Positions 9,893 to 60,530 of a stretch of 64,000 bases of DNA are shown one piece after another (position 1 is the first letter of the stretch; each line of letters begins with the position of its first letter). The DNA is taken from assembly GCF_008831285.2 (NCBI RefSeq), contig NC_045142.1:22939300-23003299 (forward strand), given 5' to 3'. Made by a program: the position numbers and the translations under genes. This DNA is from Nymphaea colorata (taxonomy: Eukaryota > Streptophyta > Magnoliopsida > Nymphaeales > Nymphaeaceae). The notes beneath the pieces are model-generated. The model had not been told where the DNA came from and did not search any database. It worked only from the letters and a program-made list of their open reading frames with translations.

Positions 9893-10271
9893 CGTCGGGC
9901 CGGCCCGTCTGGCCAGAAGCACGGGCCCCGGCCCGGCCCGATATCCCAGGTCCCGGCCCGGGCCGTTTGAGCAACACAGTATTCGTCCGACGGTCCGCGC
10001 GGCGAAGTCACAGCCACGTCGCCGTCCGATGGCGTGCTGGGCGTGCCGGCCTTCATGTCGCCGGAGGAGGAGGAGGAGGGGTTGGAGCGGGAGATGGAGG
10101 GGGAGCGGGAGACGGAGGAGGGGTTGGAACGGGAGAAGAAGGGGGATGGTGAGCGGGTGGGTGGGGTCGGGCCGACCCGGGTTGCGTCATCTGGTTCGGT
10201 CGGAAAAACGGCTCGGACCTGTGCCCGACCGGGTCGGGTATCAGGTTCTCGATAGTGGCTTGACCCACCCA
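9893..10271. mobile_element. GC-rich non-autonomous element with GGCCCGG words
   Basis: An abrupt GC island in AT-rich DNA. Its ends are related inverted sequences, GGGTGGGCGTCGGGCC at the left and the complement of a TGGGTGGGTCAAGCC end at the right, filled with repeats of GGGCCGGCCC and CCCGGCCC. The middle (about 9990-10140) has gene-like composition, with runs of GAG/GAA codons in the plus frame from 10034, and could be a captured exon; I do not recognise the protein. No clear target duplication was found. It lies immediately upstream of the RPA3 E2F sites. Confidence 0.45.
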
Positions 10272-12302
10272 GGCCTTTTTCCCTTTTGAATACAATATTA
10301 CAAAAATTGCCACTCTTTATGTAAAAATGAAAATTATATGTGCTTTTCCAATTTCGGTTTGACACTATGGATATGAGATCCCTAAGATCTCAAATCCATG
10401 ATAATTCATAGTTTTCAACATGTGCTATCAATCAAACTGATGATTTTCTAAAACACACCTTTTTACTCAGTCTTGGACTTAAGATCTGAGGTTATCAAAC
10501 GTAACCTTAAAGAAAAGGGTGTTTGATTCCTATTCCAATTTTGATTCAAATTATTGGTCAAATCCAAATCCGAATTCAAGATCTAACAAAATCTATATTC
10601 AAATGTCGAGTGAAGGTCAAGTCACCAACCAAGCCACTTTGAGAGGTTGTTTGCCATATGCCACAACCAATGCACCTAGTTGAGTGGTTGAGATTGTCTG
10701 GTTACTCATCCAGGTTACTACTTAAGAGGTTGTTTGGCAACAGTAATACATTGTCATGTGTAAAACATCATGAGATTTATACTTGGTAATTTGCACATAT
10801 ACAATCAGATTTAACTCCATGCCCATTTAACTTCAATTGCTTTATGGATTGAAACAAATCTGGAACATTTCATTAACATAAATGAACTTTCAGTTGTATC
10901 AATCAGGTTCATGTCCATTGCTATAGAATCCATGCCTGAAATCAGGTCTCGGAGTCTCGGAGTTTGGATACAACCATCTTGCTCAACACTTAAACTGGAC
11001 CAAGCAATGGTCCAAAAAGCACCTAGAAGCTGGAGGTGCCATGTTGTTGGTAGAGGTTGTGTCCCAGGTTGAAAACAAATAAATTCTATTATATACTCAA
11101 ATCCAGATAAGGTTTAGAAGATGTCAAATCCAAATATATCACCGAAACCCCCTTTTTTTTCTACCTCGGGGGGTGAAGGACTGTTTCTAAACCTAGGTGA
11201 TGAGCAGTGTTGCACATCCACTATTTGCAGTCCATATGAGTAATAATAGGAATTGAACTGATGGCCAGACTTTCATTGACCCACCAGTCTAACCAAATCT
11301 GCTACGTCCTTTAGAATAAATGAAGACATATAGGCAAGCTTTGAGGAGTTAGGATTGAAATAATGTGGTCCTTTTTCATCTTCCCCTGTTTAGAAACTTC
11401 ATAAACAATATGTGAAAGCCTCCATAACTAAGCATAAATGAAGATCAACCAAGCCCATAAAGGCTCCATCAGATTTATAATAATGGTCAGGTTAGACCCA
11501 ACCCGAAAGCTTGCCTAAGGTTCAAGGACTAGGACATGCATTTTTTGCCGCAATAGAGAAGCATAGCAGTGGCCGAAAGATTTCCTCACTCACCGGACCA
11601 AATAGATAAGATCTTCACTGGTACAAGTATATAAGGATTTCAGACCAAGACAACTGTGACTGTAGCTCCTTCAGAAAGCTTGGTGAAAGAAAAAAGAAAC
11701 AAGACCACAAGTTAGAACTTCCAACAGAAACTCGAGGGCAGCATCCAAAGGAGAAACAACGTGCAACTATTACATTTATACTGTTTGTTTCAATTTCGAA
11801 TTGAAGGAGGGAATAGGGGATCCTATCTGCTGTTGGAACACTGGATTTTAGAAGCAAAAGGAAGGTGAGAACAGACTTGGCTCCTCCTTTGAACGTCGTG
11901 CTCATCCGGACATAGCTGGTTATAGGCAACAAGGGCAAGCAAACAGCAAACTAAACCACCTTGATCTTTAACAATCTCGTTAAATAGGGAAATAGGATTC
12001 ACAGAGCCAACCCCTATTCAACATGACGATAAGACGCTGGAACTGGGTAAAAGTAATTGGAACTCGAAGCACGAGGCTTACAGCATGTTTACTTTTTGTG
12101 CACGCCAACAGACAACCATGTAATGAGACCAAAACACGTAAAGAACAAGCTCATTTAATTGCTGTAAAGTTCTAACTGTGAAACCATCAATTACTGCGAA
12201 AGAAGAAGGAAATACTTTCATGGAACATTGAAACAGTGACTAGATTTTGTATGCAAGCTATAAAAAAATCATCATATACATAATCTCTATTAGCAATGCT
12301 CA
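10272..12302. other. Intergenic spacer inside the inverted repeat
   Basis: No supportable gene. At about 10369-10500 there is sequence rich in AAATCC/GGATTT and AGATCT words, related to the element at 52986-53602. The rest is unique AT-rich DNA with scattered short open frames that show no domain. Confidence 0.4.
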
Positions 12303-15300
12303 TTCGTGTCTCTAACTGATGAGAATTATTCATTTGCTGTCCAAATTAGCTCCTTCGCCTTCTCTTCTTGCTGTTCTGCTGCTTCCTTTTGCCTCTCTTC
12401 TTGTCTTTACCACCTCCATGGTTATGGTCTTCCACCCTAGAAGCAGCTTCATCCTTTCTCAAGATATGCTTCACATCCAACATGCCATTTCTGAAATTAC
12501 CTTGGCTAATTTTGAGCACTTGATCTTCTCGCCTGGTTTTCTGGCTTTTGCTAGTATATTTCCGAGGAATCTGATCAATAAGACCCTGGAAGAAGCATGG
12601 AGGAAGCTAAATTTTAGAGACAGAGAAAGAGAGAGTCCACACCCAAGTCAATGACCTCATTCTCACTTAATGCTTAATGGACACCGCATATAGCGATGTC
12701 CCTGCCACCAAGTTTTTTGACAGATAGGGATCATCCAACTGTATTTACCATGACGGGATATAAGATCCAGAGTACTTATAACTTGTCAAGCCTTTTTACA
12801 CACCATACTAACAGGATCCAGAATTTTTCTGCTAAACAAACCACACAAAGAAAGACATGGATACAAATCTTACTTTTTAATTTTGATAAGCAGCCCAATA
12901 TGGGCATGCAGACGACATAAATCTGGTGCACACCTACCAAGTTTAGTGCGTGTATGTGTGTGTGTGTGTGCATGTGCACATATACCATTGGTGTATAAAA
13001 TACCTCCTCAAATAATTTTTGCTCTTTTTCCTGCCTTTTTTTCATGATGTTCCTCCCCAAAATGACAGGCATCTTGCAATTCTTTTTAGGCTGTCATAAA
13101 TGTACAACTATCAGTATATAATAATGTCAGACCTCTATAAAAATGATGCCATGATTTAACCGATAGAGGGATGAACACTCACCTTTCCACCTAGGGAAGC
13201 CACACTTTGGTCTTCCATCTTCTTCCTTTCTTTCCAACTCAGTTGTGAAGATCCTAAGAAAACCTCACATATGTTAGGCACAAGAGACATTTGAAATTAC
13301 ACTTGACAAGACATAGAACAGTCAAAAGATACACACAACAAAATCACACACAAAAGAAAAGACGCACAATAACATCTGCTTTTTAACTTTTGCTAGATAA
13401 AGTTGATAACAGTATTGATGTGAAGTCATGATAATAGTATCACTGTGGCTTTATTTGATTCATGCGGCATTGCTTGCATTACGGGATATCATCAGTTTTG
13501 CTAAACAACATCCTTAGTTTCTGCATTTCGGTTTCGAGTGCACAGACTCATGTTAATTTGGAAAAGGCTCATAATTGATTTGCATTTCTTGTAATGAAAT
13601 TAACTTCATCAGGGATTTATGGATTTAACTTCAGGCAGCATGCCAGAAGCCACTGCACATACACTGGAAAAAATTTTTGCAGTGACAATAGAGACACTTA
13701 AGATATCAAAAGGAAATTCTTGGCTGTCCAGCTGATAGTTGATTTGGTTTCACACTCTGGTGACTTCTGCAAAGCACATCTGATCCTTAGTTCCTTTTCT
13801 GGTACCCTGCATAGTGAATGACAGTTTTTTTTTTTTTTGCATTCTTTGCTAAAAACTGTGGTGAGTAATTATGATTTTTCTTTTCTTATCCTGTGCCCTT
13901 AAAAGAAACAAAATAAATTCCATGTATCTCGGTCTCTGTGGGTATCATACTTAAATCTCAATGACTTTTCTGAACAGCGATCAGAAAGCAGACCAACTTA
14001 TGGGCAAAAGAAATACAAGAACTCTAGAAGTGGCTGATCATGGAAAAGAAGTGAAAACAATGACAGAAACATGAAAAATGAGATTGGCAACTTCAAGAAT
14101 AATATTCAGGAGGTCAAGAAACGATCCAGATATCTTGGTCATCAGACCAGCCTCCATTAGTATGGATAGCTACTACTAAGACATCTTGAACTGAGTTGAC
14201 ATATCGAGAAAGCAGTATATTTCCACTCAGCAGCATAGAGATGTTGCTGGACCAGTAGGCTTTTCAGCTAGTTGCTGTAAAGGATGAACAAGAACAACTT
14301 CCAACATATTTACCAGTAAACTTTAGCCACAGGCCAAAAATACAAAGTTCAGCAGCATACTGGAAAACTAACAACAAAATGCTTCATAATACATTTACAA
14401 ATTAGTGAAGAGACTAATACAATGTGAAATTTTTTGTACATCTTTATTATCATGACCCTGAAAAAGTATGGACAACCAAAGGAAGGAATAACTATATCTG
14501 TAAGAAGCAAAGCACAGACAGGGTTTTTACCTAAGAGCTCAACAGCCTTTAATAGTTTTCCGAAGGACTTCTTTTCTTCCTTGTCGTCCATGTTATCTAT
14601 CAGCTTTTTTGACGTTTGGTTCTCGTACATATCACTGATGCTACCTGACTGCAGAGAAACAATATTGTTTCATGCAAAAAATTGAGTGCAGAAGCTGGTT
14701 ACAACTCATTGCTCACACAGGAGAAGATGAGAAAGATGAAGATACTTTACATGATTGACAGTTGACAAGCATATAAACAAATGACAAGAATTTGGAAGAA
14801 GATAAAACCCCTTCAAAACTTTTACATAGAAATATAGAATATGAATTTAATATGAATAGATAAATTAGTCTACCATTCTCCTTCACTCTTTCTTTCTCCT
14901 TCTATAAATACAATTAATATGAATAGATAAATTAGTCTACCATTCTCCTTCACTCTTTCTTTCTCCTTCTATAAATACAATTAATATACGTTGAGATCAA
15001 AATTCAACTTGTTCAAAAGTCAGTGCCAATAGACCAAATCAATTCACAGGGTAATGTCCAAGTTTGAACAACCCTAATCCCATCAGGGATAACCACAACA
15101 TGATGCAACTGCAACATCTCAAACCTCGCAAGATAAAGTCACAGTCGCCGGGAATATCAATCTAGATCATGTGATATTTGTATAGTTTCCTGACTTCATC
15201 TCAGATTGGACAAAGCTCCTGAGGAATGGAAAAAATGGCAATAGACACTGAAAGTTAACTAAAATCCTGGGTCACATTGTTGGATAGTTGGTCAATCTAT

Positions 15301-16080
15301 AATATGTGGTCATGAAACAGTGAAACATCATCGAACATGTAAAGTAATCCACATTTTCACTTCAAAACCATGCAGCAAAGATCAGAGATGTTCTGAACAT
15401 ATCTCAATAATTAAAAATATATGCATGGCGAAGAAATTTTGAAATATTGAAGTGATTGCCTATTCTGAGAGTATTACAAAATCTTAATATTTGTTATGTT
15501 ATTTGCTTTTGTCGTTTCACATAACTTTCTACTAGGCAAACAAATCCCCAATGGATTAAGATAAACTGGGCAATGTTGCTTTCATTTGATTTTTATAAAT
15601 CAACCAATACAATAAGGTTTCTTCAAGAAGTTGCAAAGTTTCTCTCTTCATGAAAGAGTGCATGGCCGTTCAGGCTGCCTGTTTGGATTCACTAGAAAAA
15701 AGAGCAAATTCACAAGTTCAACCACATACATGGACAAGACATTTTGGTGGAGAAGAAGAAAAAGAAGAAGAAGAAAGAGGAGGAAGAGACAAAAGAAGAA
15801 AGGAGAAAGAGGAAGAAGAAAGAAGAAGAGGCAAAGATACCTAGGGTAGCACACAAATGCAAACTTGCAAACAGACATAAGGATTGGGGTTCTTTTTTTT
15901 TCATTCGAACCTTCCTTCTATTACCATTTTCAAAATGAGACTCATTTCCTTTTAATTTTGAAGCTTATTAATTGTCTTTACCTTTAATTTTAACTTCATA
16001 TGTGTGTGTGAGTGTGTGGCCAGCATCAAAACTCTGCAACCATGTAACAAGGTACACAGTAATGAGGCATCATTCAATTA
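12303..16080. repeat. Inverted-repeat arm B, right
   Basis: Reverse complement of 3194-6780. This arm holds the intact version of gene X and is slightly longer, because it keeps about 105 bp near 15870-15980 lost from the left arm and has an extra 67-bp tandem copy at 14914-14980. Gene X reads outward-in, on the minus strand, with its presumed promoter just beyond the arm. Confidence 0.9.
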
Positions 16081-17711: not shown

Positions 17712-18310
17712 AAAAGTATTGAGTATGTGTTGCAGAAAGAAGTTGCTTTATGGATAATATTGTTCTTTAATTTGTTATCTATATCCAGGTATATGGGTCT
17801 GTTAAGATGTCGCCATTGCTCGTTTGAAAAATCTTGAACATTCAAGAGGTTTTTGATGCAAGGTTCAATAAGTGTGTCAGTGAACATCCATAATGTTTAC
17901 CTGAAAATCCTTCTTACTAGGCGCTATCACTACCATAATTTTGGACATGTTCACCTACATCAAACCATGGTCATTCTCAATGTTTCCTTCCTGAAGCTTC
18001 AACACTAAAATCATAGTTATCACCACTCACTATCTTCCTAGCTTGAAACCATAGAACTCTCAGCATTTATGCCCCCGCCTACTCACTAGGAGTGATAAGT
18101 TTTTTTCCCTCTTAAATTAGATACTTTATAACCCAATCTTCATATGCCTTCTTAATCATGCATCTTATCGCCCAAACTATAGTTTTACAAGTCACACTCT
18201 ATCTCTAGTTAGACAGTCCTGACTCCCAATTACAATCCTAATTGCTTGCTCCACTTTACACACTTTCCCATGTTGAATGAAAGAAACAACTGCATATGTG
18301 CGTTACTTGA
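17712..18310. repeat. Direct repeat L1, right copy
   Basis: Same orientation as 1-595, with scattered substitutions and single-base indels. After 18310 the two copies diverge abruptly. See the left-copy entry. Confidence 0.8.
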
Positions 18311-21130: not shown

Positions 21131-23598
21131 TGCATTAAATTGGCGCCTGCCATTTAATAACTTGGTTCTAATCTCCGCGGGACTTTCTCGTTCTAATAAT
21201 TTTTAAGTGACATGGAAAAACTGCCACATCGTGTCAACATGTCGACATATGGGTATGGGGGTACACTTGGACATGGCTTTTAAAAAACATTATTTTTTGC
21301 ATTTGCGATATTTATTTTAAAGTTTTGCATATTATTTTTTCATTATTAATCGTCTAAAATATATTTTTCACATGTTTTTTACACTTTTCCAACGTGTTTT
21401 GTCTGAATTTGCATATTTTTAGTGGAATTTGGCACACACATATATATATATATATATATGTGTGTGTATTATATTTTGTCGTATCCCCATAACCATTTAT
21501 TTTAAAATTATTGTGTTTGTGTCTGTTCCTCCATACCTCTATTTATACCCATACTCGCATTTGTGTGACCTAAAATTAGCCATACTGACCTAAAAAAATA
21601 GTTTTTGCTATGAGCTAGCTAGCTTGTACAACCTTGGCTCTGTCATGTAATAATTCTTGATTAAAAAAAAAATCTCATAAATGTGTTTGCATATATGAAA
21701 ATGCAATGTGAACACAAAGATTTAATTGCACTCTTAATAGCGTTAAAACAACATAGTTGACATTATACTTGTGCCAAGTTAAGGCTTGTGTTGACACGGC
21801 GCTTGTGTAATGCTCCAAAAAATTTAGTCTCGTATTTAAGAATGTGAAAGATTTTGAGGAAATTATAAGAGAGGTTGTTAAATTTACTTGGTTGTCCTTA
21901 TTCCTATTTTTTTCGGGTTGAATCCGAAACCATTACAGAGCAGGTTGGGATTCATCGGACCAGTAATTTGAGTTCGGTTTAAGAGTGGATTGGGTCCTGA
22001 CAAGTGATATCAGAGCACAACTCAATACTCAGACCTATGTACTTTAAAGGGGTGGATTAAAACACATCAAAAGTTTAGTCTTGTATTTAAGATTGTGAGA
22101 CATTTTGAGAAACTTGTAAATGACATTGTTAAAGTGGTTGCTTGTCCTAGTTCTTACCTTTTCCAGGTTGAGACAAAAAACTTTTAAGAGGTGGGTGGGG
22201 ATCCACTCAACCAATAATATGAGCCCAATATGGGAGTGGACTGGATCGTGACAGATTGTGATCTAATAACTCTTGGTTGTAGACACATCAAAGAGTTATT
22301 AGTCCCTGGAAATCAACAGCTCATTTGATGAGGCTTGTCAATGATTGATCATAAGTTTGTCTATATGTCGGTCTTTAATAGAATCTGGACCGGAGGAGCC
22401 AATATCTTACATGAATTAGGTTACATGTTAGGCGCCTAACACATAATTGTATGTTAGGAGCAATGTCACAAAAAATGCGTCTTACTGGAAAAAAACACTA
22501 TTAAACGTGAAAAAAAAACACATTTTTTTTAAATAAATGCCAAAAAATAAAAAAAAAAGTGAAAAAATGTGTATTCTATGCATATAATATGCATTTTTTC
22601 GTATTTTTATTTTTTATAATTTTAAGATTTATTACATGTTTTAATTTTAAAAAAAATTGCCGATATTTTCTCATTTTATTGTCGAGATATACAGCTTTGT
22701 CGTATTATATCAGAGAAATTTCTCGCCATATAATACCCATACACTTTTTTTTTGTGACAATGGTTAGGAGTTAAAAATGACCCTGGAAGACAAGAATGTG
22801 ATAATGGACGGATCATCATTAAGATAATTTCTAATGCAACTCTGCTGGAGATTGGTCACCCTACCCTTAAAGATCTCGAGGATTTTCATCATTTGGATAG
22901 CAAATATATATCACATTTTTTTCATCACGCAGAACTGTACTGACACAATATTCGCGTCACTAAAAGCAACTATGCCTAGAACCACTCGTACTACCTTCTA
23001 TGACATGTTTTTAGATCATTTCTCACACTCGTTTATGTCAGTAATGATGTCCCTTCATAGACCCATGCGCATTTCATTGGCATCACTTTCATTGAGGTCT
23101 TGTATCGAGCTACTAGTTGCGTTTGTGAAAGCGTTGGCTGTCTTTCAAAACTGGTTACGTGCACACCTCTGATCTAATGACTAAAATATTTTCAAAAAAA
23201 AAAAAAAAAAGAAGATTTTTATAAAGACAAAAAAAAAGAAGAAGAAGATTTTTATAAAGACAAAAAAAAAGAATTATAAAAGTTTTAAACATCTAAAATG
23301 TAAATACTTTATACAAAAAATTAAAATGTCCCAAACTCCTTTCTTTGTTTTTTAAAATGCATATTTGTTGTGTGTGCAGAGGTGTGCACGCAACTCAATC
23401 TCAAACCCTTAGTTTTTCTGGCGCCACACTTTACTTTTTGGTGCTCCTAAGTATAAAATATTGTTTTCTTGTGGAGGAGAACATGGGTTACGTGGAGTCT
23501 CACCAACTCTGACTTCAAGTTGAACTTCTTTTATTCTCTTTTTTTTTTTTTGTTTTTTGTTCTTCCTTTGACAACATACTTCTTGATTTTTTTTTTAT

Positions 23599-23634
<36 letters not shown>

Positions 23635-23665
23635 CTTTGACTACATACTTTTTGAATTTTATATA

Positions 23666-31624: not shown

Positions 31625-31790
31625 CAATGTTATTGAGGTCGGCCTGAATCCGCCGATTTGAATCGAATCGGCTCCTTTGCCGATTCGATGCAGTGGCTGA
31701 ATCGGTGAACTCTTAAAATTGGGCGATTTGTTAGTGACTCGGCAGAATCATGGGTGAATCAGGCGATTCAATGTGAATCGCCTGATAAAG
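31625..31790. mobile_element. Truncated hAT-like element with GATTCGG words
   Basis: Begins CAATGTTATT, the same terminus as the element at 59098-59794, followed by a GTCGGCCTGA motif and many copies of CCGATTC/GAATCGG in both orientations. I could not find the matching ATAACATTG end, so the right boundary is approximate. No coding capacity. Confidence 0.5.
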
Positions 31791-34176: not shown

Positions 34177-34179
34177 TTA

Positions 34180-34611: not shown

Positions 34612-34620
34612 ACTTACCCA

Positions 34621-36506: not shown

Positions 36507-36861
36507 GGGGTGAACACGAGCGCAGTCGCGCCCGAGTTCATTCAGCTTGAGTTCCGCTTGACTAATGGAACCTCGAAAATAGCTCGACAGAAGCAGCTAG
36601 AGTTTGACTAGGCATGTACGTGTTGAGCTCGAGTTCAACTCGATTAAGGCTTGACAAACTCGTAAATTCATTTGAATATATCGAAAGGCTTGACAAACTC
36701 GATTAAGGCTCGAGCTCGACTCGGCAGTTACGTGTTGAGCTCGAACTCAACTCGATTATTTGAACGAGTCGACTCATGAACTCAAGCTCTACTCATTAAG
36801 CAAATGACTTGGCTGAAACTCGTTCACCAGCCGAGCTTTAATGAGTTGAGCTATTGTTCAC

Positions 36862-36863
<2 letters not shown>
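36507..36863. mobile_element. Non-autonomous element with GAGCTCGAG words
   Basis: Ends GGGGTGAACA and TGTTCACCC form a terminal inverted repeat. The interior consists largely of GAGCTCGA, AACTCGAT and CGAGTCGA repeats in both orientations. The right flank is a TC microsatellite, so a target duplication cannot be judged. A fragment of the family lies at about 18870-18965. Confidence 0.6.
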
Positions 36864-36911
<48 letters not shown>

Positions 36912-41100: not shown

Positions 41101-44100
41101 CAGTTGCGAAAAATCTGGATAGCTGCATCCTGGCTCGATGTAATGGAATCTGGCAATCCCATGCCCAGCCCTGTAACTATCATTCTCGGCTGGAGCCGGC
41201 CTGAACCTTTTTCCGGCAGGTTGGGCCCTACTCAAGGGAGATATGAGCAAACATGAATGTCCGAACCCTAAGCTGACTCTCTCTTCCTAGGCCTTGATTT
41301 AAATTTGGCCAGCAAGTGGCTATAATTCCTCACTTAGTGCTTTAGCGCTAATGACTACTGAAAATTTTTCCTCAAGTAAATGTTGTCATCGGTTGCCTTT
41401 TTTCTTTTTTTTTTTAAATTTGTAGCTGCTGCAAAATTGCGTTCTGTTCTAGCAAAAGGTTGCATCTCAATCGAGCTAAATTTTTGATGTAGACATAGAC
41501 AAGGACACTAATAATGGAGATGGCATTATACATTGACAAGGTCATAAAAGGTTTGGATGTGAGTCCGATCTAGTTTCTAGAAAAATGGGATTCGGATTCT
41601 AAATCAGATTTGAACCTTATTTCTAAATTCGAGTTCAGGTCTCGCTAGAATATGATGCAGCATTTATATCTTTTTGGTTCAGATCTTTATGGAAATCTGC
41701 TGGGTTTGGAATTCAGAATTGGATTCAGTTTGACACTGGACATCAAACCTGTATAATTGGATCTGAATTTGTTTACCACATCCAGACTAAATGGGTCAAA
41801 AACTGGATCTACCCTTTACATTCTTCAATGTATGTGTGCATTGTAATAAAACCCACATACATCTCAGTAGGTAATTGGTCTGCTCAGTTTTTTGACCCTG
41901 TACTAAAAGTTCCATACCAGGGAACAAATGAATTCTGGACCTCTTTCAACCTAAATGGATGAACACACTTTATATTAGGTATGGTTTAGTTCAATACATC
42001 TTTTTCACTTTAAATGTTTATACTCCAAAATGATCACCAGCTGAATGCAGTAAATTCTTACAGCCTACACATTCAATTAGAAACTTCTTTTATAGCAAAA
42101 CCCCACCTAAAACATGGAAATCAACCTTTTTTAGTTTAAGCCAAACAGGGTTTCAGCAGATATTCACCACTTTGTACCAAGTGACAAAATTGGTTTGTTC
42201 AACTTTAGGGCCCTTACAATTTGAGGGTATCAAGTCCAACTTCTTATTTAGCCAAGTGGATGGAGTTCTTGTTCGCCCGAAATCTACTTATTTGAACTGT
42301 CATAATCCTAACAAATATAGGCCTATTTTTTCTAACTTTCTTTTTCATTATTGAGAGTAGAACTTAAACTAGGGCACTTTCAGCATTAAGTGTAGTAAAC
42401 CAAGCAGTTTAGTGATTAGGACACCTTTAATGGCTCCAGGCAAACCTCATGATTGCATGTCAATCCATGTGCTGCACATTGCTGTAATGTTGTCCAGATT
42501 TGCATCTATACTTTTCAATTGATTATGAACCACGTCGGCGCTAAACTTGGCCTTGGCCAACCATCCAAAGCTCTTGATGCCTTCATATGACTAATAAGTC
42601 CGCGAACATCATCATCATTGTCATCATCATTATTGTTGTTGTTGTTACAAGTAAACCCAGCAGTTAGTCGCCGACTTCTGCTTCGCACTTGTAGGCTCAA
42701 AGCTGCCTTTCCAAGGAAATTCTGTTGAGACATAACACCTAAATTGTTAACCATCTAAATTTTTCATATTTCTTTGAAACCCTAGTCTTGCTAAAAGTGG
42801 TAGGTCCTACCTATTTTTCCTGATTATGTCAACATCTAAAGTTTCATCTAAAGGAAATCACCTCTTCCGCTAAGACTCGATCTCTTCATAATAAATAAAG
42901 TTAAATAATCTAAAGTAAATCACATCTAAAGAGTTCAACATGAGAAAAAGTTAAATTGCTTCTTCTATGAACCCAACATAGCACCGGTTTTATTAGACAA
43001 AAAATTTGTCTATAAAAGGTTTTCCTGGGAAACCTTGAAGGGCCTTGAATGATTTGTTATTCCTTGGCCATTTCAAAGGGGAAGCCGACTTTGACAGTAT
43101 ATTGGGTTCACCCCATGGGTATGCCAGGTAAATCTCTTTGAAGCTGTTGGGGCAAGCACAAACTAAACTCGTATAATACAAAGTAAAATCCTTTAAACAC
43201 ATATGGTTCTAGTTACCAAGCTCATATGCGTTGAATAATCCGTCCAATAAAAAAGTTTATACAAGTCAAACAGTACCTGTTGGCGGTCTATGGGACGGAA
43301 CGAGCTCTTTTGGAACCAAGCCCACAACATGTGGAATGGAAGTAACAATATAATTCAAATCAGTCAACCTGCAATCTCATAATCTGAGTGAACAGGGCCA
43401 AAATGAACACAGCTTGCCTCAATCTCAAACCTTCTTACACACTTGGTTGCGTCGGAAGGTCAAAACTTTGAAATTCAAGGTCAGGAGGCTGATCTCCATG
43501 CATGTCCCTCGCCTTAAGAGCATAACGCATGGGAGATTTTATCAGTTAGCATGAAGGATCGACCAGTAGTAGTTTGACGAAACTCAGAGCGACTTCCTTC
43601 ATTGTCCAATTTACTATTTATCCAAAAACAAAAGTGCCTTGTATCATTGTATGAAATCGAAAGCATGATCATAATCAGCAGGCCAGACAAACGGCGTTGG
43701 CTCATGAAGGAGCCATGACCTACTCTGCTCATCAAAAGAGAGAAACCTGAATGCACAGTGGGAAATGATCTTGTAATCCTAGGGAGTAAATCGTTTTATA
43801 GAAGACAAACAAATAATTATCAAGAAATATCTGATGCGCATTTACCAGTTTTTTTCATGAAATCAGAATTTGCTTGCACAGTGGGCAAGAAATTGTTAAC
43901 TAAAGGAGGGAGAGAGGTTACACATTCTCATTACAAGAGTAGATTTTGAATTAATACTTTGGTTTTTCTTTTTTTTTTAATCAGCAAAACCAAGAAGATT
44001 CAGATGGGAAAGCTTATCCCTTCACCAAAATTTGCATTTTACAGATGTCCTAATGGCTGCTCACCTTCCTACATCCTCAAACATGGTACAGTGGGAGCAG

Positions 44101-44115: not shown

Positions 44116-46581
44116 CTATGAAAGAACTGCCTTGATCTTTGCTTTCTGGTCTTCTGTGAGCGAAGTTGGGAACAGAACCTCAAATGTAATGTACAAGTCG
44201 CCTTTCTTTGAGCTCATATACAAAGGCATGCCTTCCCCTTTGAATCTCCTAACTTCTTTTGGTCTCGTTATTCCCTGAAAAATTACCACAAACTTTTTAC
44301 ACTCAACATAAAAATCCAACCAAGTCCCAAGTGGGACAACACATTTGTTATATCTCCGACGGAAAACTACTCTTAGTTCTGTGCAGACCTGAAGTCTCGA
44401 TGTTGGATCTAACTGTCCAACACTGGACTTGACTCAAAAGGTCAGGAACATTAGCTAGGTATTCAAGGACCTTTTTATCTCATTCCTGTTCTAGAGAGCG
44501 GGCCGATCAAGTTCTAGCCTCAGGAACCATATTGAAATCTGGGCTCCAGACAGCTTGTGGGTTCAAGTAGTTTATCACAACAGTGATCAAATTAGCAGAG
44601 CATGCTAAATAGCACTTAGATGGCACATATGAGCACACCTTTGTTCCGATGTCTACTGGGTGTTCATCCAAGTGCATGATGGTCTTCTGGAAGCCAACGA
44701 GAGCTTGAACCTGATTCATTGAGAAGCAATAACCAAGATCAGAAAACCAACAAGACAATTACAGTGATCAAAATAACAGAAGACAACCGGACATGCAGAG
44801 GAAGCGAATTGAACAAGATCAAAGCAGTCCTATAACTCAATAAAGGCAAATATGTATATTCGCGTCATTAACTTCAAAGTTTCAAACATGGACCCGGCTA
44901 AAAGCAACAGTTTTTTATATTTGAAGTGACTAATCAATAGAACCCAGCAAGACATCTCACAGAAACAGCAGTCTATTTAACAAATTAACTCCAATGCCCA
45001 GTCAGCATGCAGATCATGCAAAGTAATAGCTTTAACTTGATAACTCAACCTTTTTTTTCCACTGGGAAATTAATTATAATAGCACATCATTGAAGAATGT
45101 CAGAATACACACACAGTCTCTTTATTGTTTTCTTCATCTAATTTCAATTTTTACTGGCCAAATTAGATTTCATTTTTTCTGAGGGTCTGTACATCAAAGT
45201 GAGTCAATATTTTTTGAATTATTTTATATACACTGAACACACATTCTTGAGATATTTGCCCAAACTGGTGGACAAGCCGAAAAGATATAGAGAAACAAAA
45301 CAACCTAACATGTTCATCAACTATAAATTGAAAACTTACAACTAGGGCTACAGATAAGAGAACAAGAAAAGTCTGCTTGCAAACGCTAGAAATGCATAAT
45401 TGTTTTAACAAACATCAAGATTGTTCTGTCGGCCTATTATATAAAATAAAGTGCTTCACATGGTGGAGTCATAGTCTCATGCACTTGTCACTTTTAACAT
45501 CAACCAGTGAGGTCATTAAGCTATGGATGCTATCAGGTTCTTCATAGTAGCGCATAAAAATCTTCCAAATTGTGAAATTTTCATTATATCAGGGATAGCA
45601 CAAGCTTCATGATATTATCACAAAAAGAACACCCACAATAATTTCATGATATCCAAACTCCAAAGGTCCTATTTCATTTATTAAATATATATGTTATCAG
45701 TCATTACGTTTTAAAACCTTCTGAATTTTTTCTAGGAAAAAGAATCTCTTCTTTATGTTATTCATGCAAAAACTTGGTGATATCCCATTTTCTATTGTCC
45801 TTCTGAATTACATTTTGTCTTTTTAACGATCAGTTTTTTCCTGACAGAAAACCATCTAAGAGAAATTTTGATAAAGAGTATGAGTCATTAACGAGAAACA
45901 CACCACATTATACCAGACAAGCAACAAATTCCAATTGGTCCACTTGAACCAGTCCATGTAGGGAACATACTTTTATTCAAGGAAAAAAGGAAAAATACCA
46001 CAAAAGATACATACCAGCGTAATCGTGACAGTCATATGCAGGTCATCGCCTTCTCTTCTGAAACGATCATGTGGTGCAGTTTGAATCCTAAACTGTACAT
46101 ATAGACAAGAATCGGAATCACCAATCAATGAAGATCGAAGAGCAGCTGTACGCTGGCAAGAGATGAGCAAAACCAACCTTGAGATCACCAACTTCACCGT
46201 CTATTATAGGCTCACCATCCTCATAAAACACAATCTCCTGTAAGAGGACCAGAGTTCCCAGTCATTAGCTAGTGCAATATGGTGACAGATTCCAACATAA
46301 GATAAGTTGCAAAATCATTAATTTATTAGAAAAAAAAGAATCTGGGTGTGAGCTGTAACTTTTACCATCCCTGCATGTCCAAAGAATCAACCTCAGACTA
46401 ACTGATGGAGTTGGCTAACTAACGGCATTCAGGTGAAATAACACAACCCATGTAGGAACAGATTGCTGATAGACTGAAGTGCAATGACTATCTTTGGCCC
46501 TATGTCACATAGGTACGGGTACGGACCATTTTCAAAAAATTTGGGTGCGGGTGTGGGGTACGGCCGTACACACATGCGGAC

Positions 46582-46625
<44 letters not shown>

Positions 46626-49600
46626 CAAAAAATTTGAAAATGAATAACATATTCACAAAACACAAACGAAGATCACTTCTATTGTCTTCTTGCTTTCCTA
46701 TTATACAATTATGTTCTTAGTTATCCACAATGCTTCAACTTTTTCCATGTTTAGACGTCTTTCTTAATATAGAACTTGCTCTGCTGGAATCAAAATTCTG
46801 GAATGTTAATTCCAGAATGTTGATTCTGGAATTGATGGAATCGGAAGTACAACGCAAGATTACAAAACTGATTCGTGTCTGCTTAAATGGTTTGGATTCG
46901 TGGAAGCCTATTTCTGTGTTTGGGCATGGAAAGGTCAAAATTGGAATTAAAATATTGATTGAAAACTTTAAAGGTCATGAGTTATTCGTGTAAAATTTTA
47001 TAAAGGATTTAACAATGTTTAAAAAAATTCTAAAAATAGCAAACATCGAGGTAATTTTTTTAAATAGGACGCCACACTATTTTAAAAATTTGTAAAAAGC
47101 AGTAGGGTGGACATGAAATTTTTTATAAACAGCTATTAAAGCCATTAGGATTCACTTTCTTTTTTCCTTTTTCATTTTTTTCTCTCTTTTCCCCACATTC
47201 TCTCTTCCTGTGACTATGTCGGAGAGGAATTGACTTTAAAAATTTGAATTTGTTTCCCTGGGCTACAGTAGATTTTCCAGGGGAGTAAACACACCTAACT
47301 TTTCAAGTCAAGACAACATTATAGACCGGTTCCATGTTATTGTCCTTTTATACCTATTCATTCACAAATATCATTAATTTTTTCCCCCATAAAGGGAAAA
47401 TAAAACAATGAAAAATTCATGATATTTTGAAATGATGCAAGATGAAAGCATAACCAAAATTTTGTAATTGGACCCAATTAGAATTTTTAGTATTTGTAAA
47501 TGGATCCAGATCCGCAGTCCATCCCTTTCTCTATATAAGGAGGCGTTGGATCATTTTGTAGTTAGTCAATCAGTTGAAAGAAATGAAGTGTTTGTTAGTT
47601 TTTTTATGTTCTTCTTGTTCCTTTGATCGTTTGCTTGAGTTTTAGTTAGTTTTAGTTTAGTTTTAGTTTAGTCTTGAAAGCAGTTGGATTTAGATTCCTT
47701 AATCTTCATTTTTATTGCATCAATTGGTATCAGAGTGAGACTTTACGTTCATGAGAGACCAAGTTCAGCAAACCTTGTTGTCACCCCTACAGTGTGTTCC
47801 TACCCTGCACATGGCTGCAAAAGATAAGAAAAAGGCAAAGGGTTCTGCTGCTACAGAAAAAAGGGTTGCAGAGTTTGCATTGAACGCAAACGAAGAAAAT
47901 CCAACAGAAATCGTGCAGTCTGAAGAAGAAAATCAAGAAAACTTACAGCAGACTGTAGCAAAGCACGGATTTGAAATCACCCGCATGAGACAGGATCTTG
48001 CTCTCATAACCAGAAGCATTGATGAAATCAGAGGAATGCTCTGCTTGGTTTTGCAGAACGCGCAGAATAAAGATGAAAATCTGCAGGCGTTTCCTGCTGC
48101 AAACTATACTCCCAACATCTGTGCATTGGGAGTGGACGGAGGTGAGCAGTCACGAGGAAGCATTGGGAGTTTGAGGGAAACAGGAGCCACGTCTGATGGG
48201 AGTCCTGCCGGAGCTCTGTCACTGGCCGTCGAACCTCACCCAGCGTTGAGACTCCTCACCGGAGTTCCCGTCTGGGGCGTCTTCCTCCCATCGTCAGGCA
48301 GGAACGACGACCATGGGGTTGTCCCTGCCCACCAGTCGGCAAACGCTGGTACTCTGCTCAGCGAAAGGAATGTCGGCGGGTCTTCCCGCCACATTGGGTG
48401 GGCAAGGGGAAGCGCAGAGGGCATCACTGTTTCCGTTGAGCTAGCGGCAATGCAAGGAACGTCGCCAGCAATATCGCCAGCAGTTCTCCAACCGGAGGAA
48501 AAGATCTGGTGGCACCTCTGCCCAACCGGCCGCCGCCCGTCCCCCTGCCTCCCACCGTCGCACTGCCTCCCGCGCAGTTCGTGGACCGAGGGAGAGTCGC
48601 CTTCCGTCGTTCACCCACCATCATTTCAGGTGGGGGGTGGTGGGCGCCCCTCCCCCTACCGCTGGTTTCCCCTCTTTCACTCAGACGAAAAGGGGGGAAC
48701 TCCAGCTGCGCCTCGAGCTCGAGGGTTTGAGCTAGTTCTTTTGGGGACCGGTTGAAGCGGAACCGGGTTTTAGACCCTATTCGAACCTGTATCGCTCAGT
48801 CTCCAGGTTCAAGAATTGGAATCCAAACCCAATCTCACTTCTTCCACTTTCTTTAGCTAGATCCGATGCAGGGTCGTTCCAGAACCAAGTCCAAGCTCGT
48901 GTTCCTTCTCCGAAGCCACCGCCTAAGCCGCCACCTTGATCATCTTTAGAAGAAGTTGGGGACCACCAACCAGGGGAGCGGCGGGTCTTTTTTTGTTCAG
49001 CAGATCCAAACCTTATTCAAACCCTCTAAGGTGAAGAATCATTTTGGCAGAATGAAAGATTTAGACTCGTCGAGGGCGACTCTTCTCCAACTAGGAGAGT
49101 CTAATGCAAGATGAAAGCATAACCAAAATTTTGTAATTGGACCCAATTAGAATTTTTAGTATTTGTAAATGGATCCAGATCGGCAGTCCATCCCTTTCTC
49201 TATATAAGGGGGCGTTGGATCATTTTGTAGTCAGTCAATCAGTTGAAAGAAATAAAGTGTTTGTTAGTTTTCTTATGTTCTTCTTGTTCCTTTAATCGTT
49301 TGCTTGAGTTTTAGTTAGTTTTAGTTTTAGTTAGTTTTAGTTTAGTTTTAGTTTATCCTTGAATGCAGTTGGACTTAGATTCCTTAATCTTCATTCTTAT
49401 TGCATCAATATCTCAAATTTGTCGATATTGCTTTTAATTTTAAACAACTTTTCTGGATTTTGATCAATGTCTCTATAAGAAAGTCAACTCAAATGTTCAA
49501 AAACCTTCAAGATCATATTGAAATGAGTGCTTTCTGAAAGAAGAGAATGGATGGTCATTGGAATTGTCATTGAATGGTTCTTGATACTGAAGGTCACTTA

Positions 49601-52985: not shown

Positions 52986-53602
52986 TCCATAGATCTAAAC
53001 AGCCCCAAGTATCAAATCTGACCTTAGATCTTGTGAGATATTGAATAAGAGATCCAAGATTTGTGGATTTCATGTTCACTGAAGGGAAGGGGCGCTTCAT
53101 AATCTCTGATTTGAGATCTTCATGATTTCAAAATCATGGATTTAAGATCTGACTCTCTCCCTCTGATTTCAAATTTGAAACTTTCTCAATGTAAAGAAGT
53201 AAAATAACAGGGTGTTTCATTGATCCTGATCTAAAATTCTCATAATATGATCAGACTCTCCTCTTTCCAATCTTAATAAATCTGACATTTTTCCAATGTA
53301 AAGAGGTAAAATAAAGATTAAACTGAGGATAGTAAGTTTGACATGAGACCATTAGTTTGATAAACCATAGATTTTGTCATGGATCTTTCGCCGCGTTAGC
53401 AAAAATACGCTACATCAGATCCCCAGATTTTAAATCTACAGCAAAAAACAAATGTCTCGTTTAAGATCTTTAGTGCATATCTTAATTTTGATCTAAAATC
53501 CATGAACCATATATTTTACCTGACATATCAGATTCAAGTTAGATACACAGATTTAAAATCAAGAGTAATCAAACGCTCTTCAAAGCTTAAATCCATAGAT
53601 CT
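52986..53602. mobile_element. Element-like region with AAATC(C)/AGATCT words
   Basis: Between two copies of TCCATAGATCT (52986-52996 and 53592-53602) the sequence is filled with GATTTAAGATCT, AAATCATGGATTT and related words in both orientations. CAGCCCC near the left and GAGCGTTTGATTAC near the right may be degenerate ends. Similar words occur at 10369-10500. I treat it as a decayed non-autonomous element. Confidence 0.4.
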
Positions 53603-57800: not shown

Positions 57801-60530
57801 TTCTCAGCAATGAAGAAGTAGCATGTGTCAATTTGCAAGTCAATCACTTGACCTGATCTTCCAGCTTTTAGGGTTTCCCCACTGTACTCAATGCTTACCT
57901 GGGTACTCCTCGGGTACGGTACGGGTACGGGTACGGCCCTGGGTACGGCCCTAGTCCAAAGTCCAAAGTTGTCCAGTTTTTGAGTTGAAAATTAAAAATC
58001 CCCCTCTTTTTTTGTTTCCTTTTTCACTCTAAACCTTTCTTGTACATAGTTCCTCACAACTTTTCATTTAAAATCTTCCATACAATGTTTCGAAAATCCA
58101 TTCCTTCTCTATAACTTGACTCTTCGATAATAGTGTGAGCCATAACCAAAGCGATGTCAATATATCTTAAAAGCATGACCTATTGCTCCTTCTAATCTTG
58201 ATGATGCGACGAAGAATCAAGAAAGCTGATATATTTGTATGTTAATTACTTCCATACTGCATTTTGTAAATATATTATTCATTTTGAAATTTTTTGACAT
58301 ATATATATATGTCTGCGTGTGTGTACGGCCGTACCCCCGCACCCAAATTTTTTGAAAATGGTCCGTACCAGTACCAGCACCGGTACCCGTACCCACACCC
58401 GTACCCGTACCTATGTGACATAGATGCTTACATTAATATGTCCAAATGTGCAGCCAAGCATTTCTGAAGTTAATGGCATATCTGCATGGTGATGTTAAAT
58501 ATATGTATAGGGTGAGCCAGGCCTGTATCCTTGGCAGCCCATGCTACAGCATTACCAAATATGATCTATTAAAAAGCTGATCTGGGAAAGGGTTCAAATA
58601 CCAAGTCCAACCTAACCTACACGTACTGGGCTAGGTTGCCTGGCATCTTGGTCTGTCCTTGTTTATCTTCTGAGATGCACTGGCCATTGAGCCTTTTTGT
58701 AGGTTAAGGGGTGTGGAGGCCCCTTCTTGTTGTAGTGATTGATGGGGCCGTTGACACTATGAAGATCTTGTGTTTGTTTGAGTACTTGATACTTTTGAAG
58801 GCTTCTGGAGATCCCATCCATGGAAATGCCCAACCACCTGTAACAGTTCAGACTTTTCTTTTGAAATGACAAACATGCTTTCTTCTACTACTTCTTCAGT
58901 TACTTGCTCTTTAGTATGAAGCCTGAGAAATGTAGCCTGTAGTCCTGATTTTTCTGCTGTTGTTTTGGTGATACTGGTAGTGTTTTATGGTGTCATTGAC
59001 TCTGATGCAATAAGTCATGCATTGCCATCATTTTCTGGAAGATCTAATTCCTCTTTGCTTGTTGGTTGCTCTTAGCAATCAGATGATTTGTATCTTCCAA
59101 TGTTATAAAAAGCGTAGCGTATCGCGTATCGGTCAGGCCGACCTATACGCCGTATCGTAATGTATCGCAAACGTAGCGTATCGTAAAATTAAATTTTTAA
59201 TTTTAAAAAATATTTAAAAAATCATTAAAAACTGAAAAAATAAACAAAAAATCAGAAATAAAGAAAAATGTATTCAAATATAAAAAGGATCATCATACAT
59301 AAGGAACATTCATGTGTGTCAACAACACATTCAAAAATAAAAAATCAAATATTCAAAATAACATAATAAGCATCCATCACAATTTTAAACTTGAAAATTT
59401 TATAGAATCTTAGGATTTAGAGTCTTAAGACTTGGAGTTTTAGGACTTTTAGATTACATCGCAATTTTATAAGTTCAAAACATATAGTTATTATCTTTCA
59501 TGATTCCACGATAATATCTCCCAAATTGATGAATCCTCGGTTATGTTTGATGAAAATGGGCAAAATCTCTCTCTCCTACGTCTATTGGAGTCTTTAAATA
59601 CAAGAAGAGAAGGGGGGGGGGAGTGTTAAAGAATTTTGTGTTTTAACTCGTATCGTACGATACGGGGGTGTATCACCTGTATCGTACGATACGGGCGATA
59701 CGCTTACGATACACGAGCGTATCGTGTATTGTAAGCGTACTGTATAGGTTTTCTAAACCTATACGATCTGTATCGTACGATACAGATAACATTGGTGTCT
59801 TCAACATCTTCAAATCTATGTTGGATTATGGTCCCTAAGTTGTTTCACTTGAAGTTGCACATCTTCTTTGGTAGTGCTTGTGGGACTTGTGTCACCAGTT
59901 CAACTGATCCAGTATATCACATGCCTCCAAGTTTCACATTCTTTTAACCTTAGCGCTGAAGTATCTGAACTTGTTTCAGAAGTTTTTGTGGCAGATGTTC
60001 CTATACCATGGTCTTCCAAGTTTTGTCTTTATCATCTGCTGACAAGTTTTAACTGTATTTCCAGGTTCAGGAAAGATTTGAATCCCTCAAGAAACGGAAA
60101 ATTGGAGGAAGCTTTACTGAGCAAGGTAGTTTGTCCAGAATTGTTGTTTTGCGTCTGAATTTTCTGTGGTGAACTCATCCTAATATTTCTTTATTATTAC
60201 TGTTATTGTTATTATTGGAACTTGTTAACTGACCTATATTGTATGATAGATTTGGATGCTAGAATATTGAAACAACAGCAAGAGGAAGAAGAAAGAAAGA
60301 GGGAACGCAGGGAAAGGAAGAAGGAAAAGAAAGTATGCATGATATGGCTTAGAAATTATAATAAATCATTGTGCATCCTTTATCGTGTAAAACTTTTAAG
60401 CTGTTACGTTGATTTTTTATTTTTTTTTGGATTTTAGAAGGAAAAGGCTGCAGAGGATGAACCTGAAGAGGATGCGGATATTGCAGCTATGATGGGATTT
60501 GGTGGCTTCCGGTCATCTAAGAAATCGTAA
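54822..60530 (+). CDS. ZMAT2: ZMAT2/Snu23-like matrin-type zinc-finger splicing factor
   Basis: Likely component of the U4/U6.U5 tri-snRNP, acting in spliceosome activation in the nucleus. Ten exons: 54822-54842, 54975-55055, 55171-55198, 55342-55424, 56219-56251, 57340-57418, 57495-57547, 60065-60125, 60250-60332 and 60438-60530, giving 204 residues in one frame. An N-terminal [17 protein letters not shown] helix is followed by [18 protein letters not shown] and [16 protein letters not shown]. The matrin-type C2H2 finger has ligands C87, C90, H103 and H109, then [16 protein letters not shown] long Glu/Arg/Lys helix (about 150-178) and an acidic segment ending in [12 protein letters not shown] complete it, as in plant and animal orthologues. 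Intron 3 uses a GC donor (AAAG/GCAAGT), required to keep the frame. Intron 7 (2.5 kb) holds two hAT-like elements. Confidence 0.95.
57899..58423. mobile_element. Complete hAT-like non-autonomous element, GGTACGG words
   Basis: Flanked by the exact 8-bp duplication ATGCTTAC (57891-57898 and 58424-58431), the target-duplication length of hAT elements. Starts CTGGGTACTCC and ends GTGACATAG. Both ends carry arrays of GGGTACGG/CCGTACCC, direct at the left and inverted at the right. The 525-bp body has no coding capacity. A related partial copy is in ERdj3B intron 6 (46500). Confidence 0.82.
59098..59794. mobile_element. hAT-like non-autonomous element, CGTATCG words
   Basis: Terminal inverted repeat CAATGTTAT (59098) and ATAACATTG (ending 59794). 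Flanks GTATCTTC (59090-59097) and GTGTCTTC (59795-59802) match at 7 of 8 bases, fitting an 8-bp hAT duplication. The left subterminal part has GCGTATCG repeats and a TCAGGCCGACC motif; the right has the palindrome GTATCGTACGATAC several times. No coding capacity. It lies in intron 7 of the ZMAT2-like gene. Confidence 0.8.

Follow-up and report, generated by a model that had tools for sequence, protein, structure and literature searches.

Families of short hAT elements with family-specific word arrays in the Nymphaea colorata genome

The Nymphaea colorata genome holds several families of short, gene-less hAT elements, each with a word of its own repeated densely at the ends. An initial annotation of a single window, the 64,000-nt stretch at 22,939,300 to 23,003,299 of contig NC_045142.1 (GCF_008831285.2, forward strand), had proposed such families, and the picture proved mostly real. 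Systems of this kind are already known (Ac/Ds, Hermes). We consider it probable that these are parallel non-autonomous hAT families, each keeping the terminal inverted repeat (TIR) of its parent and a clade-specific word array that would be bound by its own BED finger.

Multi-copy families and target duplications

Copies gathered genome-wide supported the ends of four multi-copy non-autonomous families, with the words GGTACGG, CGTATCG, GAGCTCGA, and ATCCGAAT and the short TIRs CTATGTCACA, CAATGTTAT, TAGGGGTGAACA, and TAGGGATGTCAA. Their members are short (∼360 to 780 bp), non-coding, and high copy, with conserved ends, and can be classed as MITEs; there were 962, 1241, 1210, and 2516 first-look candidates in the four families, the best 40 of each were scored, and all of these matched at least partly. 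One TIR may accompany different words: CAATGTTAT is found in both CGTATCG and GAATCGG elements, and TAGGG-TG with three other words. The annotation had listed at least six elements of one design; beyond the four families, its GGCCCGG element is low copy and degenerate, and its GATTCGG copy is degraded, the word there being GAATCGG.

An 8-bp target duplication (TSD) matching at seven or more positions flanked 46 of the 59 copies in which both termini were placed (GGTACGG, 23 of 25; CGTATCG, 13 of 13; GAGCTCGA, 5 of 11; ATCCGAAT, 5 of 10), compared with 4 of 956 in a swapped-flank control. The consensus for hAT duplications is nTnnnnAn; the pooled TSDs favor T at position 2 (23/46) and A at position 7 (28/46), a bias rather than a rule. 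Same-word relatives encode hAT transposases, as described below, and hAT-like mobilization of the word families, which the annotation had thought likely, is well supported by these sequence comparisons.

Word-bearing elements in the window

Word counts were compared with those in 200 Markov sequences of each element's own composition, at k = 5 to 8. The GGTACGG element (57899 to 58423, forward strand) is flanked on both sides by ATGCTTAC (57891 to 57898 and 58424 to 58431; 8/8, read by eye), and its word count was reached by 0/200 Markov sequences at every k. Its right terminus, CTATGTGACATAG, is intact, and its left terminus is short relative to the family start, CTATGTCACACGGGTACTCC. All 13 occurrences of the 7-mer in the window lie in this element or in a truncated end of a second one (46500 to 46593, reverse strand, terminus CTATGTCACATAGG), which taken alone showed no word enrichment, at least 39 of 200 Markov sequences reaching its count at every k. 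Across 25 copies, left ends hold 71 GTACGG and 1 CCGTAC, right ends 15 and 80, and no copy has a word outside the terminal 150 bp. The words had been described as nearly self-complementary; those of this family are directional more than palindromic.

The CGTATCG element (59098 to 59794, forward strand; TIR CAATGTTAT) was also confirmed. Its flanks, GTATCTTC and GTGTCTTC (59090 to 59097 and 59795 to 59802), agree at 7/8 positions, 9 of the 13 CGTATCG occurrences in the window fall within it, and its word count was reached by 0/200 Markov sequences at k = 6 to 8 and 1/200 at k = 5; in all 13 copies the terminal 200 bp contain every word. The same left terminus, CAATGTTAT, begins a degraded element at 31625 to 31790 (forward strand). 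The literal GATTCGG claimed for it is absent at 31625; the repeated words are of the GAATC/GATTCA type (0/200 at k = 5 to 7, 82/200 at k = 8), with three occurrences of GAATCGG/CCGATTC. A search for its right end found none, which leaves the TSD unplaceable, and it matches five places genome-wide, short of a high-copy MITE.

Word enrichment and genome-wide copies also back the GAGCTCGA element (36505 to 36866, forward strand; TIR TAGGGGTGAACA; 0/200 at k = 5 to 7, 3/200 at k = 8), but its words fill the whole MITE, interior included, so the confinement of words to the ends, seen for GGTACGG and CGTATCG, does not extend to this family. Its flanks match at 7/8 inside a CT microsatellite and are therefore uninformative as a TSD. 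For the ATCCGAAT/GGATAT element (34178 to 34612, forward strand; TIR TAGGGATGKCAA), genome-wide copies back the ends, whereas the window copy is marginally enriched once its composition is allowed for (95/200 at k = 5, 8/200 at k = 6, 39/200 at k = 7, and 22/200 at k = 8) and its flanks show no TSD (a 4/8 match by eye).

The GGCCCGG element (9883 to ∼10271, forward strand) is degenerate. Its left end, TAGGGGTGGGCGTCGGGCCGG, recurs at other loci, with 27 match rows elsewhere within the first 91 bp, 12 of them starting at position 1; among the best 40 of 83 candidates scored, nine loci match the left end and interior in separate pieces and none matches end to end in one piece. The element shows no word enrichment when its GC-rich base content is taken into account (28 to 92 of 200), has a weak 6/8 TSD, and is not a high-copy MITE. 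The annotation had reported two 8-bp duplications and one 7-of-8 match. In the window, we see an 8/8 match at 57899, a 7/8 match at 59098, an uninformative 7/8 match at 36505, a 6/8 match at 9883, and no duplication at 34178. Two further claims were not confirmed. A GGCCCGG echo at 41050 to 41230 has no word enrichment (62 to 200 of 200) and is not supported as an element. The possible seventh element, with AAATCC/AGATCT words (52986 to 53602), has a direct repeat, CCATAGATCT, but lacks matching termini or a TIR, and 0/200 was obtained only at k = 5 (16, 55, and 68 of 200 at k = 6 to 8).

Transposase-bearing relatives and their BED fingers

The search for transposase-bearing relatives was successful for three words. 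Three such hAT elements of 5.6 to 8.0 kb, each with a perfect 8-bp TSD, have terminal arrays of GGCCCGG, GAGCTC, or ATCCGAA words that reach about 190 to 410 bp inward, and no such words elsewhere. The GGCCCGG element (5,585 bp; TSD CTAAAGAA) has 14 and 15 word matches at its ends and 0 between; its frame is broken, but that of a related locus, L062, is intact over 670 aa. In a tree of the 30 top-scoring hAT transposase loci, 18/20 members of one clade and 0/10 others are followed downstream by GGCCCGG arrays, which makes the predicted association of this word with its transposase strong.

The relative of the GAGCTCGA family (6,645 bp; TSD CATTCAGC) contains a 759-aa open frame, with 6 and 33 GAGCTC matches at its two ends and 0 between, and its TIR, TAGGGCTGCACA, differs from the MITE TIR TAGGGGTGAACA at two positions. 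This pairing is supported by a single element; five clade relatives show no GAGCTC array (0 to 1 matches) in the 1.5 kb read downstream. The ATCCGAAT relative (7,986 bp; TSD CTTGCATC; 35-bp perfect TIR) has a broken reading frame and 21 ATCCGAA word matches at its left end, 42 at its right end, and 0 between; one complete element, with three downstream arrays read for their words, supports this putative pairing. Flanking sequence was read at 48 of 150 scored hAT loci, and none of the 48 proved to be a partner for GGTACGG, CGTATCG, or GAATCGG. The proposal that words diverged with the transposases is supported for three words, most strongly GGCCCGG, while two of the strongest families, GGTACGG and CGTATCG, are partnerless in this sample.

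All three transposases contain Dimer_Tnp_hAT and a hAT RNase-H fold by Pfam. The zf-BED match is above the cutoff (20.6 bits) in one and below it in two (18.9 and 16.1 bits). The BED helix reads [TA]SHL[SK]RH for GGCCCGG, TSSMKRH for GAGCTC, and TSRLKNH for ATCCGAAT. By hand alignment, the helices vary at the positions of the Hermes contacts N67 and R70 given in PMC10368747 (H/R, S/R, and R/N, respectively). BED type thus appears to track the word as a correlation among three words, two of them with sub-cutoff zf-BED matches.

Possible roles of the words and known systems

The words are likely to be subterminal transposase-binding sites. Each MITE family would keep a short TIR and a subterminal word array from a transposase-bearing hAT parent; N-terminal BED zinc fingers may bind their own word, with head-to-head or tandem copies leading to transpososome assembly, the short TIR would serve the cleavage step, and each transposase would prefer its own array. 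If a BED finger binds its own word, word and recognition helix should change together. A bolder reading, which we rate as somewhat less likely than not, is a natural BED-finger recognition series made up of three or more (probably five or six) hAT lineages with a common transpososome plan, near-identical TIRs, and switched words. The switch would map to the two helix positions aligned with Hermes N67 and R70, so that the word, not the TIR, would separate the families and prevent cross-mobilization.

Membership of another superfamily with 8- to 9-bp duplications (e.g., P, Merlin, or MULE) is very improbable. We know of no match for the TIR CTATGTCACA, and the partnerless state of GGTACGG and CGTATCG in the 48 loci read would fit such an origin, but the duplications lean to nTnnnnAn, and in the three remaining word families the same architecture encloses a hAT transposase. 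It is also quite unlikely that the arrays are passive short tandem repeats, degenerate hexamer microsatellites that slippage expanded within the transposon ends and that transposase does not bind. GGTACGG arrays do read as near-tandem GTACCC/GGGTAC units, with different unit numbers in copies ∼90% identical, and one locus, L071, has 56 GGCCCGG matches in tandem at ∼15 to 24 bp. Slippage fits poorly with the mirrored orientation of the GGTACGG arrays at the two ends (71:1 left, 15:80 right), with the array-free interiors of the GGTACGG and CGTATCG MITEs and the three transposase-bearing elements, and with the recurrence of one word in elements of different size and across a single transposase clade whose members have diverged.

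The TIRs shared between words (CAATGTTAT; TAGGG-TG) raise the alternative that all families are served by a single promiscuous hAT transposase, or by a few, for which a short TIR is enough, the words being neutral lineage markers passed on by descent. Shared descent alone would yield the word-clade association, with no function needed. According to PMC3260210, some Ds1 elements lacking AAACGG transpose while the tested Ds-l3 and Ds-l4, which have it, do not, so the hexamer is not strictly needed in Ac/Ds; the same text reports three 5′-end AAACGG copies as required for transposition. We judge this alternative unlikely, as arrays persist across the divergence of the GGCCCGG clade and are kept in MITEs that retain little else.

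Among plant hAT elements, Tag1 of Arabidopsis, whose TIR starts with CAATGTT and which has a hexamer in its subterminal regions, may be comparable to the CAATGTTAT families, for which the 48 loci read gave no partner transposase. Dart/nDart of rice, with a TAG-GGTG-type TIR and subterminal sequence rich in GC, may likewise be comparable. A close parallel, described in PMC3260210, is Ac/Ds of maize, with an 8-bp TSD, a short TIR, a repeated hexamer in the terminal ∼200 bp, and small derivatives sharing little but their ends; Ac transposase binds the subterminal AAACGG repeats, most likely imparting specificity. Ac/Ds uses one word, whereas this single genome has at least five, three of which are associated with different transposase clades. 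In Hermes, according to PMC10368747, an N-terminal BED finger reads subterminal repeats, two of which form a quasi-palindrome bound cooperatively; weighing against the word-binding model, ∼70% activity remained after mutation of two inner left-end repeats, and in the structure the right-end repeats have no BED domain contact. The Hermes motif, AAGT/AAGC, occurs 17 and 14 times in its two ends (PMC10368747), whereas the words here are 6 to 8 bp, GC-rich or mixed, in dense arrays.

This one genome yields three word-transposase pairs of identified sequence, two with intact open frames (L062 and L080). To our knowledge, how hAT transposases distinguish their own ends, and the BED finger code, are known for very few pairs. 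Non-autonomous test substrates, perhaps numbering in the thousands (5,929 first-look candidates in four families, best 40 per family scored), have common TIRs and differing words, and pairs and substrates together make hAT specificity a small matrix experiment. For annotation, we suggest that the word, more than the TIR, should name the family.

When the entire window was scanned for TIRs with TSDs alone, it gave 4 structures, against 0 to 9 in each of 15 Markov sequences, so a structure in a single window proves nothing and the multi-copy test is the one that counts. A further hAT-like element, absent from the initial annotation, lies at 40666 to 41062 (forward strand), with a 12-of-12 TIR, CTAAGTCACATG, and TSD AATGAAAG/AATGAAAA; nearly all of its 40 scored matches cover only the left half (about positions 16 to 208 of 397). 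It overlaps the start of the claimed echo at 41050. A putative hAT-like mini-element at 22461 to 22762 (forward strand) has an 8/8 TSD, GTTAGGAG, and TIR CAATGTCACAAA versus CATTGTCACAAA; it contains no word array, which suggests that some families do without words.

Genome-wide copies and target site duplications

A structure scan of the whole window for TIRs of 12 bp (two or fewer mismatches) flanked by an 8-bp target site duplication (TSD) gave 4 matches, compared with 0 to 9 in each of 15 Markov sequences. This is no better than chance, so structure within the single window was rejected as evidence and genome copies were used instead. The 407.8-Mb assembly (783 contigs; the window lies on contig 5) was searched with each element, and the best 40 first-look candidates were scored. 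These came from 962 for the GGTACGG element (57899-58423), 1210 for GAGCTCGA (36505-36866), 1241 for CGTATCG (59098-59794), 2516 for ATCCGAAT (34178-34612), 549 for a further hAT-like element at 40666-41062, and 83 for GGCCCGG (9883-10271); the degraded copy at 31625-31790 gave only 5, all scored. Nearly all of the best 40 of 549 matches to the 40666-41062 element covered its left half only. Among the best 40 of 83 candidates, the GGCCCGG element had no other end-to-end match in one piece; its first 91 bp gave 27 match rows elsewhere (76-91% identity), 12 of them from position 1, and nine loci matched the left end and interior in separate pieces, with a locus on contig 618 spanning 1-384.

From the 40 scored in each family we examined 28 GGTACGG, 14 CGTATCG, and 12 GAGCTCGA copies, as well as 10 ATCCGAAT copies picked among full-length matches. 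Each terminus was assigned solely from its mismatches to the TIR, or from the match ends for ATCCGAAT, and both could be placed in 25, 13, 11, and 10 copies, respectively; three GGTACGG copies without a left end, including that of the window, thus fall outside the 25. An 8-bp TSD matching at 7 or more positions was found in 23/25 GGTACGG, 13/13 CGTATCG, 5/11 GAGCTCGA, and 5/10 ATCCGAAT copies (23, 13, 9, and 8 at 6 or more positions), compared with 4/956 when flanks were swapped between copies. These counts include the window's own CGTATCG and GAGCTCGA copies, and the TSDs of the latter and of one CGTATCG copy (L028) prove little, because they lie within simple repeats. In the pooled TSDs, T occupied position 2 in 23/46 and A position 7 in 28/46; hAT elements favor T at position 2 and A at position 7. 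The hAT-like mobilization proposed in the initial annotation is therefore well supported by 8-bp duplications across copies of four families. Two GGTACGG copies included in the 25, L048 (contig 7) and L049 (contig 6), have nearly the same target duplication and flanks on different contigs, and thus are probably one insertion inside a duplicated segment.

Subterminal words and terminal repeats

All 13 occurrences of GGTACGG in the 64-kb window lie within 57899-58423 or the partial copy at 46500-46593, and 9 of the 13 occurrences of CGTATCG lie within 59098-59794. Word counts were tested, element by element, against 200 Markov sequences of matched composition. None of the 200 reached the word count of the GGTACGG element at k=5-8, the CGTATCG element at k=6-8, or the 31625 and GAGCTCGA elements at k=5-7. 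The ATCCGAAT element was marginal (8/200 at k=6, 22-95/200 at other k), and enrichment was not significant for the GGCCCGG element (28/200 at best) or the 46500 partial copy. An echo of GGCCCGG proposed at 41050-41230 was rejected on the same control, its word count not being significant. GATTCGG, named as the word at 31625, is absent there as a literal 7-mer, GAATCGG/CCGATTC being present three times instead. A possible seventh element built from AAATCC/AGATCT (52986-53602) shows word enrichment at k=5 only and contains a direct repeat with no accompanying TIR; the proposal is unsupported but not disproved. Its similarity to 10200-10800 consists of short matches only.

Confinement of words to both ends held for two families: interior words numbered zero in 25/25 GGTACGG copies (terminal 150 bp excluded) and in 13/13 CGTATCG copies (terminal 200 bp excluded), whereas the interior of GAGCTCGA copies carries words too. 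Word number varies among copies of one family. The initial annotation also described every word as near-palindromic. Counting perfect palindromes of at least 10 bp, we found enrichment at the ends of GGTACGG copies (22 in 7,500 bp versus 0 in 7,631 bp of interior), CGTATCG copies (51 in 5,200 bp versus 3 in 4,441 bp), and the full GGCCCGG and GAGCTC elements described below (3 in 500 bp versus 7 in 5,085 bp, and 16 in 840 bp versus 5 in 5,805 bp), but not of the full ATCCGAAT element (2 in 840 bp versus 18 in 7,146 bp), and GGTACGG words are mostly directional. The general description of the words as near-palindromic is weakened to that extent.

The GGTACGG family starts CTATGTCACACGGGTACTCC and ends CTATGTGACATAG; the window copy starts CTGGGTACTCC and so lacks part of the left terminus, although inspection by eye shows a perfect TSD, ATGCTTAC, around it. 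The CGTATCG family has the terminus CAATGTTAT in common with the 31625 element, and L056, an opposite-strand relative of the latter, has it at the same place; TAGGG-TG is common to GGCCCGG, GAGCTCGA, and ATCCGAAT. Different words thus share TIRs, and the word is therefore not a function of the TIR. A hAT-like mini-element at 22461-22762, with a perfect 8-bp duplication (GTTAGGAG) and TIR CAATGTCACAAA, has no word array.

Transposase-bearing relatives and their BED fingers

A genome search with the hAT dimerization domain returned 1,113 candidates, of which 150 were scored, all above the cutoff. We read 48 loci: for the 30 top scorers, the locus plus 1.5 kb of flank on either side; for 18 others, the 1.8 kb downstream. 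Using further flanks, three complete transposase-bearing elements were bounded. The ATCCGAAT element (7,986 bp; flanked on both sides by TSD CTTGCATC; perfect TIR of 35 bp starting TAGGGATGTCAACGGATCGGATTCGG) has 21 words at its left end, 42 at its right, and none in the ∼7.4 kb between, with a reading frame broken into pieces. The GGCCCGG element (5,585 bp; TSD CTAAAGAA) has 14 and 15 words at its ends and none between; its frame is also broken, and a relative, L062, has an intact frame of 670 amino acids. The GAGCTC element (6,645 bp; TSD CATTCAGC) has 6 and 33 words at its ends, none between, and a 759-amino-acid open frame; because its TIR, TAGGGCTGCACA, has two mismatches to TAGGGGTGAACA, the TIR of the window MITE, it is a related, not a proven, parent. 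Among the 18 downstream stretches, where the transposases lie outside the sequence read, arrays of 9 to 14 ATCCGAA, the word of the complete ATCCGAAT element, were present in three (L096, L099, and L110), and 4 to 24 GGCCCGG matches in six (L100, L101, L104, L105, L106, and L111). Transposase-bearing hAT elements sharing the word were thus found for GGCCCGG, GAGCTC, and ATCCGAAT, but no partner for GGTACGG (CTATGTCACA ends) or CGTATCG (CAATGTTAT ends) appeared in the 48 loci read, of 150 scored among 1,113 candidates.

A tree was built from 30 transposase fragments, the top scorers of one model rather than a random sample, and placed 20 in one clade with 100/100 support. GGCCCGG arrays (at least four matches within 1.5 kb downstream) accompany 18 of these 20 and none of the other 10; the exceptions, L084 and L088, have no array within the stretch read. 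In the six-member GAGCTC clade, an array was seen in L080 only, where the 1.5 kb read holds just its start; the other five gave 0 to 1 matches in the same length. The ATCCGAAT transposase (L083) sits on a long branch, grouped with three loci, possibly domesticated genes, that have no words. L071, a GGCCCGG-clade locus on contig 1 near 42.05 Mb, has one hAT end with 56 GGCCCGG-type words in a regular ∼15- to 24-bp tandem, the highest count of the 30 top scorers, so arrays can expand; four AAACGAG-type matches lie within it.

For the GGCCCGG protein, the Pfam zf-BED match scored 29.8 bits, against a cutoff of 20.6; segments from the GAGCTC and ATCCGAAT elements fell below that cutoff (18.9 and 16.1 bits), although their C-x2-C and H pattern is plain. 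Helices were sought with T/S/A, S/T, L/M, and H fixed and positions 67 and 70 left free. Among the GGCCCGG-clade loci, 19 of 20 were readable; 18 of these have the helix [TA]SHL[SK]RH, and the remaining one has a stop at the arginine. TSSMKRH was found in 5/6 GAGCTC-clade loci (the sixth unreadable), the ATCCGAAT element has TSRLKNH, and two of the three wordless loci have TSHLKKH (the third unreadable). A search of solved structures with the BED segment gave weak zinc finger matches only, with Hermes not among them at E values up to 1, so the register comes from aligning T-S-x-x-x-x-H by hand. Between the second cysteine and the histidine, the spacing is 18 in the Nymphaea fingers and 17 in Hermes. 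Aligned on the histidine, residues at Hermes positions 67/70 are H/R (GGCCCGG), S/R (GAGCTC), and R/N (ATCCGAAT). In Hermes, base-specific contacts involve S66, N67, R70, Q64, and main-chain groups, H71 being a zinc ligand (PMC10368747). The helices thus differ among the three words, but with three words only, the relation between BED type and word is a correlation, not a code.

Two known systems bear on mechanism. In Ac, the transposase binds cooperatively to AAACGG repeats near the element ends, which most likely confer its specificity; yet some Ds1 elements that lack AAACGG do transpose, and the tested Ds-l3 and Ds-l4, which carry it, do not (PMC3260210). In Hermes, BED fingers bind two left-end repeats that together form a quasi-palindrome; ∼70% of activity is left after mutation of two inner repeats, and the right-end repeats are uncontacted in the structure (PMC10368747). 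By analogy, each word array would be where the BED fingers of a single transposase clade load, with cleavage at the short TIR. The data show mobility with an 8-bp duplication, words confined to the ends, and, for GGCCCGG, a word associated with its transposase clade; word binding, family specificity, and joint change of helix and word are inferred. It is likely that the elements are parallel non-autonomous hAT families with clade-specific, putatively BED-bound word arrays derived from transposase-bearing parents. That they form a BED recognition series within one genome, in which a switch at helix positions 67/70 changes the word and the word, not the TIR, prevents cross-mobilization, is a more tentative reading that we regard with some doubt. 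The five GAGCTC-clade relatives without an array and the contrary Ac and Hermes results lower our confidence in both.

In the part of the open-access literature covered, six word or TIR strings occurred in no relevant context, the sole match being a glioma paper. Open-access titles and abstract openings on subterminal repeats, hAT, and BED concerned Ac/Ds, Hermes, Kat1, Tgf2, and MITE surveys, and parallel word families in one genome were not noticed among them; the name Nymphaea was absent among the open-access matches listed for that genus.

Other repeats and frames in the window

The window is plant-like; among its open frames are matches to a Myb DNA-binding domain and to replication factor A protein 3. 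The arms of an inverted duplication (3196-6781 and 12303-16078) are 92 to 94% identical over ∼3.6 kb, with an axis near 9.6 kb, and the spacer between them holds the GGCCCGG element (9883-10271). In a second inverted pair (2578-3091 and 7769-8336; 87% identity), the latter copy holds the open frame at 7865-8224 that matches replication factor A protein 3. A 338-amino-acid frame (47739-48755), with no Pfam match at an E value of 0.001, lies between direct repeats of ∼300 bp (47435-47724 and 49104-49409); these are 92% identical, are spaced by ∼1.4 kb, and resemble LTRs of a short element. A longer direct repeat, of 599 bp, joins 1-599 with 17713-18308 at 93% identity.
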